Positions 1-44,102 of a stretch of DNA of 44,636 nucleotides are shown one piece after another (the stretch's first letter is position 1; every line of letters starts with the position of its first letter). A program made the translations under genes and the position numbers. The stretch is from Patescibacteria group bacterium (GTDB taxonomy: Bacteria > Patescibacteriota > Microgenomatia > UBA1400 > PJMF01). The notes under the pieces are model-generated. The model was given only the letters and a program-made list of their open reading frames with translations, ran no database searches and was not told the DNA's origin. Location: NCBI GenBank assembly GCA_018816385.1, contig JAHIVK010000054.1:1-44636 (forward strand), given 5' to 3'.

Positions 1-137
1 TAATTATGGATAGATTTTATAGCATTTTCGTTGATTCTGATGACGATAGTAGCCTCAGCTACTTGAGGAAGAAGAAGCAAAGAAAATGCATAAAAGATGC
101 CATAAGTAGCCATTGCCCTTATTTCGCGACAAGTCTA
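1..137. repeat. Partial copy (a) of ~166-bp palindromic MITE-like element, cut by window start
   Basis: Near-identical to 38055-38219 (taattatggatagattttatagcattttcg...cttatttcgcgacaagtcta). Confidence 0.85.
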
Positions 138-7783: not shown

Positions 7784-7857
7784 AAAATCATTGATCAGTT
7801 AAGTTTGTACTGATCACCTTTTTGGTTTTACAAACTACTGCGGTAATTATATCATAA

Positions 7858-7987
7858 TGCATCTTTTGACCATTTTCCCATTTTTATCTTCCTCAAGTAG
7901 CTCTGGCTACTATCGTCATCTAAAAATGGTGAAAATGTGTCAAAATCTATCATTAATTTCTTTATTTCTTATTTCACTACAAGTCTA
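7858..7987. repeat. Divergent copy (b) of MITE-like element, one terminus lost
   Basis: Shares gcatctttt, ctcaagtagctctggctactatcg, aaaatctatc and tttcttatttcactacaagtcta with 41967-42132. Confidence 0.7.
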
Positions 7988-16099: not shown

Positions 16100-16214
16100 G
16101 TCATCCTCGCGCCTTTTTGTCATCCTCGCGCCTTTTTGTCATCCTCGCGCCAGCGGGGATCCAGGGGCGCAGTTGTCAATCCTGGATTCCCCCCGCCTGG
16201 GCGAGGAGAATGAC
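16100..16214. repeat. REP/BIME-like cluster: 19-bp tandem (gtcatcctcgcgccttttt) plus inverted REP pair
   Basis: gtcatcctcgcgccagcggggatccagg...cctggattccccccgcctgggcgaggagaatgac. Confidence 0.85.
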
Positions 16215-16232
16215 AACTAACGAAAAAAGTCT

Positions 16233-24843: not shown

Positions 24844-24868
24844 TAGACTTTCTGCGGCAGAAAGTCTA
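24844..24868. repeat. 25-nt mini-palindrome TAGACTTTCTGC-G-GCAGAAAGTCTA overlapping the atpH stop
   Basis: 12-bp perfect arms; the atpH TAG stop (24866-24868) lies in the right arm. Confidence 0.9.
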
Positions 24869-27075: not shown

Positions 27076-27113
27076 AGACTTTATTAACTCGTTTTTTATT
27101 TCGCAGAAAGTCT
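27076..27113. repeat. Mini-palindrome of TAGACTT family upstream of atpB
   Basis: AGACTTT...AAAGTCT arms; inner taactcgttttttatttcgcag resembles MITE right end. Confidence 0.65.
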
Positions 27114-32236: not shown

Positions 32237-32510
32237 GTCATTCTCCTCGCGTAGCGGGGGGAATCCAGTGGTTGGTCTCATACTCCTGGATCCCCGCTGG
32301 CGTGAGGATGACAGACCCTCTGGATCCCCGCTGGCGCGAGGATGACAGACCCTCTGGATCCCCGCTGGCGCGAGGATGACAGACCCTCTGGATCCCCGCT
32401 GGCGCGAGGATGACAGACCATCTGGATCCCCGCTAGACCCCGCCCAAGCGGGGGGCGCGAGGATGACAGACCCTCTGGACCCCGCCCAGGCTGGGCGTGA
32501 GGATGACCAG
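32237..32510. repeat. REP-type array with 34-bp tandem units
   Basis: aggatgacagaccctctggatccccgctggcgcg at exact 34-bp spacing (atg ending 32310, 32344, 32378, 32412), then degenerate units; inverted REP at 32237. Confidence 0.92.
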
Positions 32511-33423
32511 TGCCCGCGGGTTTATTTTGATGAACAGTCTGATTAAGTTCATCCAAAGCTTGTTTAGCCTCGGCTTGATTTGGGGCTCGCCCGTGCCAAT
32601 CGGGATTATTTTCCATAAACGACACGTCCTTGCCAGCCGTCGTGTGGCAGATAATGGCAGTTGGTAGGTGGCACGTGCGAGCCCCATTCAGAGCCCAACT
32701 AATTTGATCAAAATTATGGCCATCAATTTCTACCACTTGCCAATTGCAACTGGTAATTTTTTCGGCCAGTGGTTCCAAGGGGGCAATTTCCTGGGTGGTA
32801 CCATCAATTTGGATGTCATTGCGATCAATCAGAACAGTCAGGTGAGTTAAATGATGAGCGCCAGCGTAACGATAGGCTTCCCAGATTTGGCCTTCCTGAT
32901 GTTCCGCATCACTGGTTTGGACAAAAATGTGGTTGCTTTTGTGGTCTAGTTTGAAAGCTGTGGTCAGACCGCAACCCAAAGACAAACCCTGGCCCAGCAG
33001 ACCCGATGTATTCTCTACCCCCGGCAGTGAACCTTGGTGAGGGTGGCCTTGGAGACGTGAGCCAAACTGTCTTAAAGACCCAAGTTCCTCAAGGGGAAAG
33101 TAACCGGCTTGGGCTAACGTCGCATACCAAACCGGACAGACATGACCATTGGAGAGCAGAAAATAATCGCGCTCTGGCCAGTCCGGTTGATGAGGTCTCT
33201 GCTTGAGGACAGCAAAATAAAGACCAGTCATCACATCAGCCAATCCCAGCGACCCGCCAGGGTGGCCACTGCCGGCCCCAGCGATCATCTCGATCACGTG
33301 GCGCCTAATCTTTTGGGCGATAAAAGCTAACTCCGAGGGAGTTTTTGTTAAACTTGTCGCGAAATGAGGGAAATGATTAACCGGTTTCTTATTTCTGGGC
33401 ACATCTCTTGTCTGATCGGGCAT
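32278..33423 (-). CDS. Transketolase, N-terminal subunit with repeat-encoded C-terminal tail
   Basis: GAGSGHPGGSLGLADVMTGLYF, LSNGHVCPVWYATLA; tail TGHPHAQPGRGPEGLSSS... lies in the REP array. Confidence 0.9.
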   Translation of the reverse strand: MPDQTRDVPRNKKPVNHFPHFATSLTKTPSELAFIAQKIRRHVIEMIAGAGSGHPGGSLGLADVMTGLYFAVLKQRPHQPDWPERDYFLLSNGHVCPVWYATLAQAGYFPLEELGSLRQFGSRLQGHPHQGSLPGVENTSGLLGQGLSLGCGLTTAFKLDHKSNHIFVQTSDAEHQEGQIWEAYRYAGAHHLTHLTVLIDRNDIQIDGTTQEIAPLEPLAEKITSCNWQVVEIDGHNFDQISWALNGARTCHLPTAIICHTTAGKDVSFMENNPDWHGRAPNQAEAKQALDELNQTVHQNKPAGTGHPHAQPGRGPEGLSSSRPPLGRGLAGIQMVCHPRASGDPEGLSSSRQRGSRGSVILAPAGIQRVCHPHASGDPGV

Positions 33424-33452
33424 TAAAGCTACTATATCAGTTACGCGTTTAA

Positions 33453-33618
33453 TAGACTTGTAGTGAAATAAGAAACGAGTTAATTATGGATAGATTTTAT
33501 AGTATTTTCGTTGTTTCTGATGCCGATAGTAGCCAGAGCTACTTGAGAAAGAAGAAACAAATGAAAATACATAAAAGATGTCATAAGTAGTCGTTGTGCT
33601 TATTTTGCTACAAGTTTA
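33453..33618. repeat. Palindromic MITE-like element copy (c)
   Basis: TAGACTTGTAGTGAAATAAG...CTTATTTTGCTACAAGTTTA. Confidence 0.88.
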
Positions 33619-33688
33619 ATAAACACCTAGTTTATGATACTTTTGATACAGACATCAGAACTCAGTCAGTTTATGATGAAAGGTATCT

Positions 33689-35692: not shown

Positions 35693-35716
35693 TAGACTTC
35701 TTTCGAAAAAAGTCTA
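35693..35716. repeat. 24-nt mini-palindrome TAGACTTCTTTCGAAAAAAGTCTA
   Basis: Near-perfect inverted repeat with TAGACTT/AAGTCTA ends. Confidence 0.8.
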
Positions 35717-37478: not shown

Positions 37479-38054
37479 TTGAGGCATAATACCCAAGTTA
37501 TGTGGCAGATTTATCTCCAGATTGTGATTCAAATAGTTTTTATACTGCTTTTTATTCGGCAGATTCTAATTGCAGTCATCGCTTGGTGGACTGGGACTCA
37601 GTCTGATGCTCCATTTGAATCTACCAAAGTCAGTATCACCAAAAAATTGGTCCAGGGTTTGAAACTTCAACCAGATCAAAAGATTTATGATCTAGGTAGT
37701 GGTTCGGGTAAGCTAATTTTCACTTTAGCTAAATTGATTAAAAATCCCATGGTGGGAGTCGAAAAGAACTGGCCTTTATTTATGATTTCTCAAGTTAGAA
37801 AATTCATTTCACCTTACAAAAATCGGATCAATTTTCTTCATCAGGACTTGTTCGAGATGGACCTGTCCCTGGCTGATGTGGTTTATATTTACCTCAGTCC
37901 CAAAACCAATCGCAGAATTAAAGCCAAGTTTGAAAAAGAACTCAAGCCAGGAGCAATTGTGATAGCTCTTAGGTGGCAGTTTGAGTTTGATCAATTAAAG
38001 TTAATCAAAACCATTGACGCCATGCACAAGATATATATCTATCGGAAAATTTAA
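37479..38054 (+). CDS. SAM-dependent methyltransferase with N-terminal TM segment
   Basis: IYDLGSGSGKLIFTLAK, VGVEKNWPLF. Confidence 0.75.
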   Translation: MRHNTQVMWQIYLQIVIQIVFILLFIRQILIAVIAWWTGTQSDAPFESTKVSITKKLVQGLKLQPDQKIYDLGSGSGKLIFTLAKLIKNPMVGVEKNWPLFMISQVRKFISPYKNRINFLHQDLFEMDLSLADVVYIYLSPKTNRRIKAKFEKELKPGAIVIALRWQFEFDQLKLIKTIDAMHKIYIYRKI

Positions 38055-38219
38055 TAGACTTGTCGCGAAATAAGAAATAAGTTAATTATGGATAGATTTT
38101 ATAGCATTTTCGTTGATTCTGATGACGATAGTAGCCTCAGCTGGTTGAGGAAGAACCAGCAAAGAAAATGCATAAAAGATGCCATAAGTAGCCATTGCCC
38201 TTATTTCGCGACAAGTCTA
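38055..38219. repeat. Palindromic MITE-like element copy (d), intact
   Basis: TAGACTTGTCGCGAAATAAG...CTTATTTCGCGACAAGTCTA perfect 20-nt termini; central GCTGGTT-gaggaag-AACCAGC hairpin. Confidence 0.92.
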
Positions 38220-38256
38220 ATAATCATTTAATTCAAATTTTGATTAGTAATTGTGA

Positions 38257-40208: not shown

Positions 40209-40235
40209 AATTTCAGTATGTCGGGCAAACCATAA

Positions 40236-40266
40236 TTAACTCGTTTCTTATTTCGCCACAAGTCTA
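40236..40266. repeat. Solo terminus of the MITE-like family overlapping a stop codon
   Basis: ttaactcgtttcttatttcgccacaagtcta; 40264-40266 is the TAG stop of the next minus-strand gene. Confidence 0.75.
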
Positions 40267-41905: not shown

Positions 41906-41933
41906 TAGACTTTCTTATTTCGCAGAAAGTCTA
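41906..41933. repeat. 28-nt mini-palindrome TAGACTTTCT-TATTTCGC-AGAAAGTCTA
   Basis: 10-bp perfect arms, 8-nt loop matching MITE TIR sequence. Confidence 0.9.
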
Positions 41934-41966: not shown

Positions 41967-42132
41967 TAGACTTGTAGCGAAATAAGCACAACGACTACTT
42001 ACGGCATCTTTTATGTATTTTCATTTGTTTCTTCTTTCTCAAGTAGCTCTGGCTACTATCGGCATCAGAATCAACGAAAATACTATAAAATCTATCCATA
42101 ATTGACTCGTTTCTTATTTCACTACAAGTCTA
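41967..42132. repeat. Palindromic MITE-like element copy (e), inverted orientation
   Basis: TAGACTTGTAGCGAAATAAG...CTTATTTCACTACAAGTCTA. Confidence 0.9.
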
Positions 42133-42141
42133 TTTCGTATT

Positions 42142-43434
42142 ATGAAAAAAAATTTTCTATTTGTGTCGTACGATGCCTTAATTACTGATACCGCTTGGCA
42201 GGTAGTTAAAGAGGGGCACCATGTTAAGTACTCAGTTGATGATAAAAAAAGTCAGGATGTCGGGATTGGTTTTGTGCCCAGAACCAAAAACTGGCGGGCT
42301 GAAGTAGATTGGGCTGACGTGATTGTTTTCGACGACGTGTTGGGTCATGGGATTTTGGCAGAAAAACTCCGCCAAAAGGGCAAGCTGGTTGTGGGAGGTA
42401 CCAAGTATACAGATCGACTAGAAGATGATCGCTCATTTGGTCAGAATGAACTCAAAAAACACGGTATCAAGATTCTTCCCTACCAAGAGTTTAATTATTT
42501 TGATGATGCCATTGATTATGTCAAAGCCAACCCTAATTCCTATGTCATCAAGCCGAGTGGTGATGCCCAGAACTATAAAAAGCTGTTATTTGTGGGTCAG
42601 GAAGATGATGGTTTAGATGTACTCAGAGTTTTGAATGCCTATAAAAAAACTTGGAGCGAACAAATAAAAGAGTTTCAACTCCAGCGTAAAGTCACTTCTG
42701 GTGTAGAAGTGGCAGTGGGCGCCTTTTTCAATGGTCATCAATTTATTTATCCAATTAACGTCAACTTTGAACACAAAAAACTCTTTCCTGGTGATTTAGG
42801 AGTGGCCACTGGAGAAATGGGCACCAGTATGTTTTGGAGTGCGCCCAATAAATTATTTTCCGAAACTCTCAAAAAAATGGAACCGACTTTAAAAGAAGAA
42901 CATTATGTGGGTTATGTTGATATCAACTGTATAGTCAATGGCAATGGTATTTATCCTTTGGAGTTTACTTCTAGATTTGGTTATCCAACTATTCAAATTC
43001 AAGCCGAATCGATGCTGATGCCAGTCGGCGAATTTTTATACAAATTGGCTGTAGGTGAAGATTTTCAACTTAAAACTAAACCCGGATTTCATTTGGGGAC
43101 TAGAATAGTAGTGCCACCATTCCCCTACAATGACCCCAAAACTTATAGAACTTTTTCCAAAAATAATGCCATTATTTTTAAAAAGCCTCATTTGGATGGA
43201 GTTCATTTGGAAGATGTAAAAATTAAACAGGGTGAATGGACGATTGCGGGTGACTCTGGGATTATTTTGGTGATTGCCGCCTCTGGTTTAACAATGCTTC
43301 AAGCTCAAACCCAGATGCGAAATAGGATTAAAAACATTGTGATTCCCAATATGTACTACCGGATTGATATTGGCAGTCGCTGGTATGAAGACAGCGACAA
43401 GCTCCACACTTGGGGGTATTTGCGCGAATTATAA
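42142..43434 (+). CDS. PurD-like ATP-grasp ligase
   Basis: NFLFVSYDALITDTAWQVVKEGH, YVIKPSGDAQNYKKLLFVG, GVEVAVGAFFNG, YVGYVDINCIVNGNGIYPLEFTSRFGYP. Confidence 0.75.
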   Translation: MKKNFLFVSYDALITDTAWQVVKEGHHVKYSVDDKKSQDVGIGFVPRTKNWRAEVDWADVIVFDDVLGHGILAEKLRQKGKLVVGGTKYTDRLEDDRSFGQNELKKHGIKILPYQEFNYFDDAIDYVKANPNSYVIKPSGDAQNYKKLLFVGQEDDGLDVLRVLNAYKKTWSEQIKEFQLQRKVTSGVEVAVGAFFNGHQFIYPINVNFEHKKLFPGDLGVATGEMGTSMFWSAPNKLFSETLKKMEPTLKEEHYVGYVDINCIVNGNGIYPLEFTSRFGYPTIQIQAESMLMPVGEFLYKLAVGEDFQLKTKPGFHLGTRIVVPPFPYNDPKTYRTFSKNNAIIFKKPHLDGVHLEDVKIKQGEWTIAGDSGIILVIAASGLTMLQAQTQMRNRIKNIVIPNMYYRIDIGSRWYEDSDKLHTWGYLREL

Positions 43435-43914: not shown

Positions 43915-44000
43915 TGGGGAAATGTCATCCTCGCGTAAGCGGGGATCCAGGAGTGAGCCGGTCGACTGTGGATTCCCCCCGCCTGGGCGGGGAGAATGAC
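43900..44000. repeat. REP/BIME pair at the 3' end of the SET ORF
   Basis: gtcatcctcacgtagtgggg; gtcatcctcgcgtaagcggggatccagg ... gtggattccccccgcctgggcggggagaatgac. Confidence 0.88.
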
Positions 44001-44032
44001 GACTTAACTCGTTTCTTATTTCATAGAAAGTC
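44001..44032. repeat. Mini-palindrome of TAGACTT family
   Basis: gacttaactcgtttcttatttcatagaaagtc. Confidence 0.55.
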
Positions 44033-44102
44033 TTATTATCACGCTCATGAATCCAGAGACATGTTGCCAGATAAGCATCATGGATATTGTGCAGAGTATT
44101 GT

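Follow-up and report, generated by a model that had tools for sequence, protein, structure and literature searches.

We found that the palindromic repeat dispersed through this Patescibacteria genome is a genuine, recently active MITE family, very probably best explained overall as a MITE that generates an ANT target duplication and is moved in trans by an IS5-family transposase. The unit is short, has TIRs, carries no transposase gene inside and occurs in many copies. The MITE reading had been proposed in an earlier note made from the letters alone, and it is borne out by perfect TIRs, target duplications, dispersed copies, an empty site, mobile derivatives and IS with the same ends; the IS630/Tc1-mariner affiliation and TA duplication proposed with it are not. 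The window (the whole stretch of DNA analysed, 44,636 nt) is the entire contig C14 of a 999,501-base genome in 77 contigs that is 97.5% complete.

The element in the window and the genome

When intact, the unit is 163 bp long and reads AGACTTG(T/C)NGCGAAATAAG...(inverted)...CAAGTCT, with a 3-bp ANT duplication outside it. All five window copies listed in the earlier note are real: those at 38055-38219, 33453-33618 and 41967-42132 have both ends, that at 1-137 is cut as the contig starts inside the element, and that at 7858-7987 has lost one end. Beyond that list, the window holds two solo ends (33349-33372 and 40230-40266) and four short palindromes. The features are:

38056..38218, + strand: full-length 163-bp MITE with perfect 19-bp TIRs; AAT at 38053-38055 and 38219-38221
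38122..38160, + strand: hairpin tip of the 38056 copy, TGACGATAGTAGCCTCAGCTGGTTGAGGAAGAACCAGC, with the conserved GATA/TTGA tandem G.A loop
33454..33617, + strand: 164-bp MITE of an older subfamily; AAT at 33451-33453 and 33618-33620
41968..42131, - strand (core on minus strand): 164-bp MITE; ATT on both flanks
1..137, + strand: MITE cut by the contig start, an assembly break within the repeat
7823..7987, - strand: older MITE copy of the MIDFDTFSPF.. subfamily, one terminal repeat lost; best-conserved part 7858-7987
40230..40266, - strand: 37-bp solo left end between two convergent genes
44004..44033, - strand: solo left end of TCTAT type, joined to a second dispersed repeat (GTCATTCTCCCCGCC..)
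33349..33372, + strand: solo end relic TTAAACTTGTCGCGAAATGAGGGA
27076..27113, - strand: 38-bp deletion relic of a TCTGC-type element
41907..41932, strand not assigned: 26-bp palindrome of two fused end tips, deletion relic
24845..24867, strand not assigned: 23-bp palindrome AGACTTTCTGCGGCAGAAAGTCT, deletion relic; ATT on both sides
35694..35715, strand not assigned: 22-bp palindrome AGACTTCTTTCGAAAAAAGTCT, deletion relic; AAT on both sides

The copy at 38056 is inserted 1 nt past the stop codon of ORF 37479-38054, that at 41968 lies 10 nt upstream of the ATG of ORF 42142-43434, and the right end of the 33454 copy is mutated (CAAGTTT). The second dispersed repeat, TGTCATCCTCGCGCCAGCGGGGATCCAGG, occurs in the window at 16137-16218, 32286-32487 and 43923-44004, partly as a 34-bp tandem array, and is fused to or inserted in MITE solo ends at window 44004-44033 and at L096 19515, L106 4480 and L097 5667.

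Flanks and gene context were analysed in ~724 kb of genome stretches chosen for containing copies. Among the 49 elements with both flanks within this sample, 28 have identical 3-bp flanks, compared with 11.0 expected and a maximum of 20 in 5,000 shuffles, and all 28 are ANT (ATT, n = 12; AAT, n = 11; ACT, n = 3; AGT, n = 2). The middle flank base agrees in 34 copies compared with 16.3 expected (shuffle maximum 29). All three intact window copies carry the duplication (AAT, AAT and ATT), and the lack of an exact 3-bp repeat around 21 of the 49 is assumed to be due to age or recombination. The TA that had been placed at each terminus consists of the T of the left ANT and the element's first A, mirrored at the other end; being one duplication base and one element base, it puts the element's true ends at AGACTTG...CAAGTCT.

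Whole-genome counts of ends and core are pattern searches over the entire genome rather than the ~724-kb sample, and they upheld the proposed multicopy family. The terminal 20-mer at ≤3 mismatches gave 179 matches compared with 0 for the reversed pattern, and the core, GATAGTAGC-N4-GCTACTTGAG, was found at 99 sites compared with 0 in the reversed control. About 57 of these core sites lie ≤200 nt from a contig end (154 ends in all), and contigs begin or stop ~140 bp into the element, so that more than one-third of contig ends fall inside a MITE copy. This MITE alone therefore interrupts the assembly at more than one-third of contig ends, window position 1 among them. We estimate ~70 full-length copies (~42 internal plus half of the 57 near contig ends, since one broken copy may supply two ends), and ~1% of a streamlined ~1-Mb Patescibacteria genome is one MITE family.

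Near-identical copies are dispersed in both orientations, and the best-matching ones are 95-99% identical, which indicates that the family was active in the recent evolutionary past. As had been observed, the unit as a whole folds back on itself, with -39 kcal/mol as DNA compared with -12.2 for shuffles (z = -9.8) and z = -9.1 and -10.7 for the two strands as RNA. At L191 4202-4364 (C28), two elements stand head to tail with CA between them, which suggests that one was inserted beside the other.

Empty site, deletion derivatives and arm symmetry

Empty sites had been proposed as a check on the MITE reading, and one was found within the same genome. The copy at C22:2473-2635 is nested in an older arm, and the sequence obtained by joining its flanks matches intact arms at 86% over 36 nt, making it an internal empty site from a single self-nested case. 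The genomes available for comparison all came from other genera.

Besides the 163-bp form, the family includes forms of 49-75 bp and palindromes of 22-45 bp. One derivative, 66 bp long and lacking the core, occurs at four sites with one common internal junction, perfect ends and its own duplications, and is mobile as such. Because this derivative jumped, the interior of the MITE, hairpin tip included, is unnecessary for transposition. Junctions of the other short forms are mostly unlike one another, and these forms look like in-place deletions; replication slipping across the hairpin may delete the centre and leave the 22-75-bp relics.

At least 6 forms of the variable TIR block, AGACTT[NNNNN]GAAATAAG, occur. 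In 29 of 45 copies, the two arms have their form in common (shuffled mean 8.4, maximum 16), an agreement inflated by shared descent within subfamilies, and most copies with unlike arm forms differ by one base. That the arms share a form indicates that they change together, and their symmetry may be renewed by arm-to-arm copying or by selection for pairing.

Gene context, hairpin tip and coding capacity

Based on simple ORF calls, 35 of the 37 paired elements lie between genes, often with a stop codon 0-6 nt away. The neighbours of the window copies are unrelated (methyltransferase, BipA, transketolase, BadF ATPase and GARS); the uniform gene class that was said to favour a regulatory RNA or replication element was not found. 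Relative to the downstream gene, young copies are evenly oriented (17 sense, 18 antisense), compared with 23 sense and 8 antisense for older copies (p = 0.011, uncorrected and one of several orientation tests). The upstream gene showed no orientation bias relative to older copies.

Of the intergenic solo ends, 24 point towards the start of a gene and 8 towards a stop. Several left ends run directly into the start codons of genes for an MFS transporter, FemAB, a 7TM protein, a nucleotidyltransferase and five T4SS-pilin paralogs; MITE ends have turned into 5' leaders of genes, including all those of a type IV pilin cluster. The five pilin paralogs lie in a row on C77 (L110 15672-18968), and a solo left end stands before each, its inner part continuing into the start codon. 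These leaders may go back to a single event, after which the genes were duplicated.

The hairpin tip is conserved in a particular form. Below a GTAGC/GCTAC stem, the order C-G, G.A, A.G, T.T, A-T is found nearly always among 34 haplotypes from this genome and 20 from other genera, a few of which are chance matches without an element. Most copies have two further tandem G.A steps with one Watson-Crick pair between each, and in some copies this separating pair is C-G instead of T-A on both sides. In G027, the outer G.A steps are replaced by Watson-Crick pairs, and one copy there has GTAAC/GTTAC instead of GTAGC/GCTAC. A variant tip, GCTGGTTGAGGAAGAACCAGC, replaces GCTACTTGAGGAAGAAGAAGC (window 38140-38160) in several copies genome-wide; it has two changes per side and forms an alternative perfect hairpin. 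A hammerhead-like reading of CUGAUGA..GAA was rejected on inspection, as the helix runs through without interruption and lacks a three-way junction.

The G.A pattern is present in the hairpin of one strand only, and one subfamily after another retains it. Since copying between arms would remove mismatches of this kind, the fact that they persist suggests that the folded form of one strand is under selection; the geometry of the steps, judged from the bases, would be sheared. Together, the conserved tip and the sense placement upstream of genes hint at an RNA or single-strand function, and the tip might act in transcripts that carry the element in their 5' leaders. We tentatively suggest a new strand-specific motif of three tandem sheared G.A steps, with single co-varying pairs between them, under a GTAGC-N4-GCTAC stem, selected independently of transposition and possibly an RNA or single-stranded DNA signal repeatedly taken up by host genes as a 5' leader. 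As a mobile palindrome whose hairpin has retained a non-Watson-Crick motif across distances at the genus level, the element lends itself to testing.

The element could now be the host's structured RNA leader or processing site, with the G.A tip as a functional RNA, a role that is compatible with a MITE origin but which we consider rather doubtful. Conservation of tandem G.A at three places in most haplotypes, co-variation of the intervening pairs (T-A to C-G; GTAGC/GCTAC to GTAAC/GTTAC), the sense bias of older but not young copies and the solo left ends leading genes all point this way. However, the orientation test is uncorrected, one of several and based on crude ORF-based gene calls, the upstream neighbour shows no bias, copies adjoin unrelated genes, and no Rfam family matched the element above its gathering score. 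The structure could equally work as single-stranded DNA. Along that line, the tip may be of use to the element itself, its hairpin recruiting or positioning, as single-stranded DNA, a factor for transposition or replication, as the one-strand pattern kept through subfamilies would allow; we regard this as unlikely, because the tip-less 66-bp derivative transposed to four sites and we noticed no comparable tip in the G041 IS (described below), the sole IS examined in full.

The unit had been said to have no coding capacity. Most copies of several subfamilies do contain an ATG-started frame of ~24-47 codons, and in most copies nothing interrupts the frame from the ATG at +33 (MDRFYSIFVDSDDDSSLSYLRKKK...); the part of the claim that stands is that substitutions are not coding-like. 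By codon position, they number 12/18/25 and 4/16/18, with the second position nearly as free as the third. These counts and the unchanged synonymous core sites argue that the constraint acts on the nucleotides and not on a protein. On the strength of the frame, the family might be read as a small protein-coding repeat (MDRFYSIFVDSDDDSSxSYLRKKK...), like the Rickettsia palindromic elements, but the variable second positions, the identical core codons in other genera where stops and frame shifts occur, and the intergenic placement of the elements make this very improbable.

Transposase partner and known systems

A full-length transposase flanked by the MITE end, proposed earlier as a check, was found in other genomes (G041, G049, G061, G298 and G331). 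G041 has a 1,016-bp IS with AGACTTGTAGCGAAATAAG ends, a 298-aa transposase and the duplication TTT. This transposase matches PF13359 (3e-27) and PF01609 (3e-18), and its best NCBIfam match is IS5_4 (2e-25, below the curated cut-off). The transposases of the other four genomes are 46-52% identical to that of G041 and have the same kind of ends, compared with other or weaker ends for transposases at 29-34% identity. IS with MITE-like ends carry the duplications AAT (G061), ACT (G298) and ATT (G331). Only the ~19-bp ends are common to IS and MITE, and the interior is not shared.

No matching transposase was found in the MITE's own genome or in 41 others of its family (42 genomes), so mobilization in trans is something we infer. 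The contigs seen were all ~3 kb or longer, and a multicopy 1-kb IS could be absent from the assembly. A MITE need not have its cognate transposase beside it in the genome, as it can outlive its helper. We propose that an IS5-family transposase, now absent or unassembled here, would cut the TIRs in trans and insert the unit at ANT sites in an ISL2-type pattern.

Several loci in the genome were rejected as partners. Long TIR pairs at C66:12167-13342 and C77:18422-19725 enclose trpS and pilin genes and no transposase. The genome's own PF01609 matches (C27 and C66) do not qualify as helpers: the C27 protein is of IS1634 type and neither locus has MITE ends. The clearest intact transposase met in the genome is an IS1634-family protein of 495 aa at C27:477-1247 (L113), unrelated to the MITE ends.

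The MITE family is of IS5/ISL2-type and not IS630-type affiliation. We take the ANT duplication to be the ISL2-type rule, and the putative subgroup assignment is based on it; no paper stating this rule was found in the literature. An IS630/Tc1-mariner-type MITE duplicating TA would account for the T before and the A after the element in 40 of the 49 copies but is extremely improbable, as the bases outside the 'TA' match (34 of 49 compared with 16.3 expected), which TA insertion does not predict, and the IS with these ends have ANT duplications and IS5-family transposases (PF13359/PF01609).

Core copies are confined to the same family (G003, G072, G073 and G077 of one genus, G027 and G070), and the other matches among 374 class genomes are isolated, with 2 mismatches, and consistent with chance. 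The core also occurs in records of Candidatus Pacebacteria bacterium CG10_big_fil_rev_8_21_14_0_10_44_11. Phage, plasmid and viral collections gave no match to the element, and no MITE described in Patescibacteria/CPR was found in the literature.

Among known systems, the IS5-family, ISL2-type IS of G061, G298 and G331 (~1 kb) have ~19-bp ends and an ANT duplication in common with the MITE, which differs from them in having no transposase and no evident internal similarity. The Correia/NEMIS elements of Neisseria are ~100-155-bp palindromic MITEs present in tens to more than 100 copies, with long TIRs, intergenic placement, internal-deletion size classes and a one-hairpin transcript, often at gene starts (PMC10969869, PMC2229807). 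The window MITE is similarly palindromic and intergenic, with long TIRs and size classes formed by internal deletion. It differs in core, phylum and ends, the Correia end sequence being, as we presume, another one; membership was rejected because the duplication here is a 3-bp ANT rather than TA. RUP of Streptococcus pneumoniae shares its ends with an IS and is thought to be mobilized in trans (PMC2229807), but RUP pairs with IS630-Spn1 and TA, whereas the window MITE pairs with IS5-type IS and ANT. QMITE2 of Coxiella and Chunjie of Geobacter decay in size and sequence into short palindromic relics (PMC10969869). The window MITE has such relics as well; its sequence is unrelated to theirs, and its 3-bp duplication is shorter than the 7-9 bp of QMITE2.
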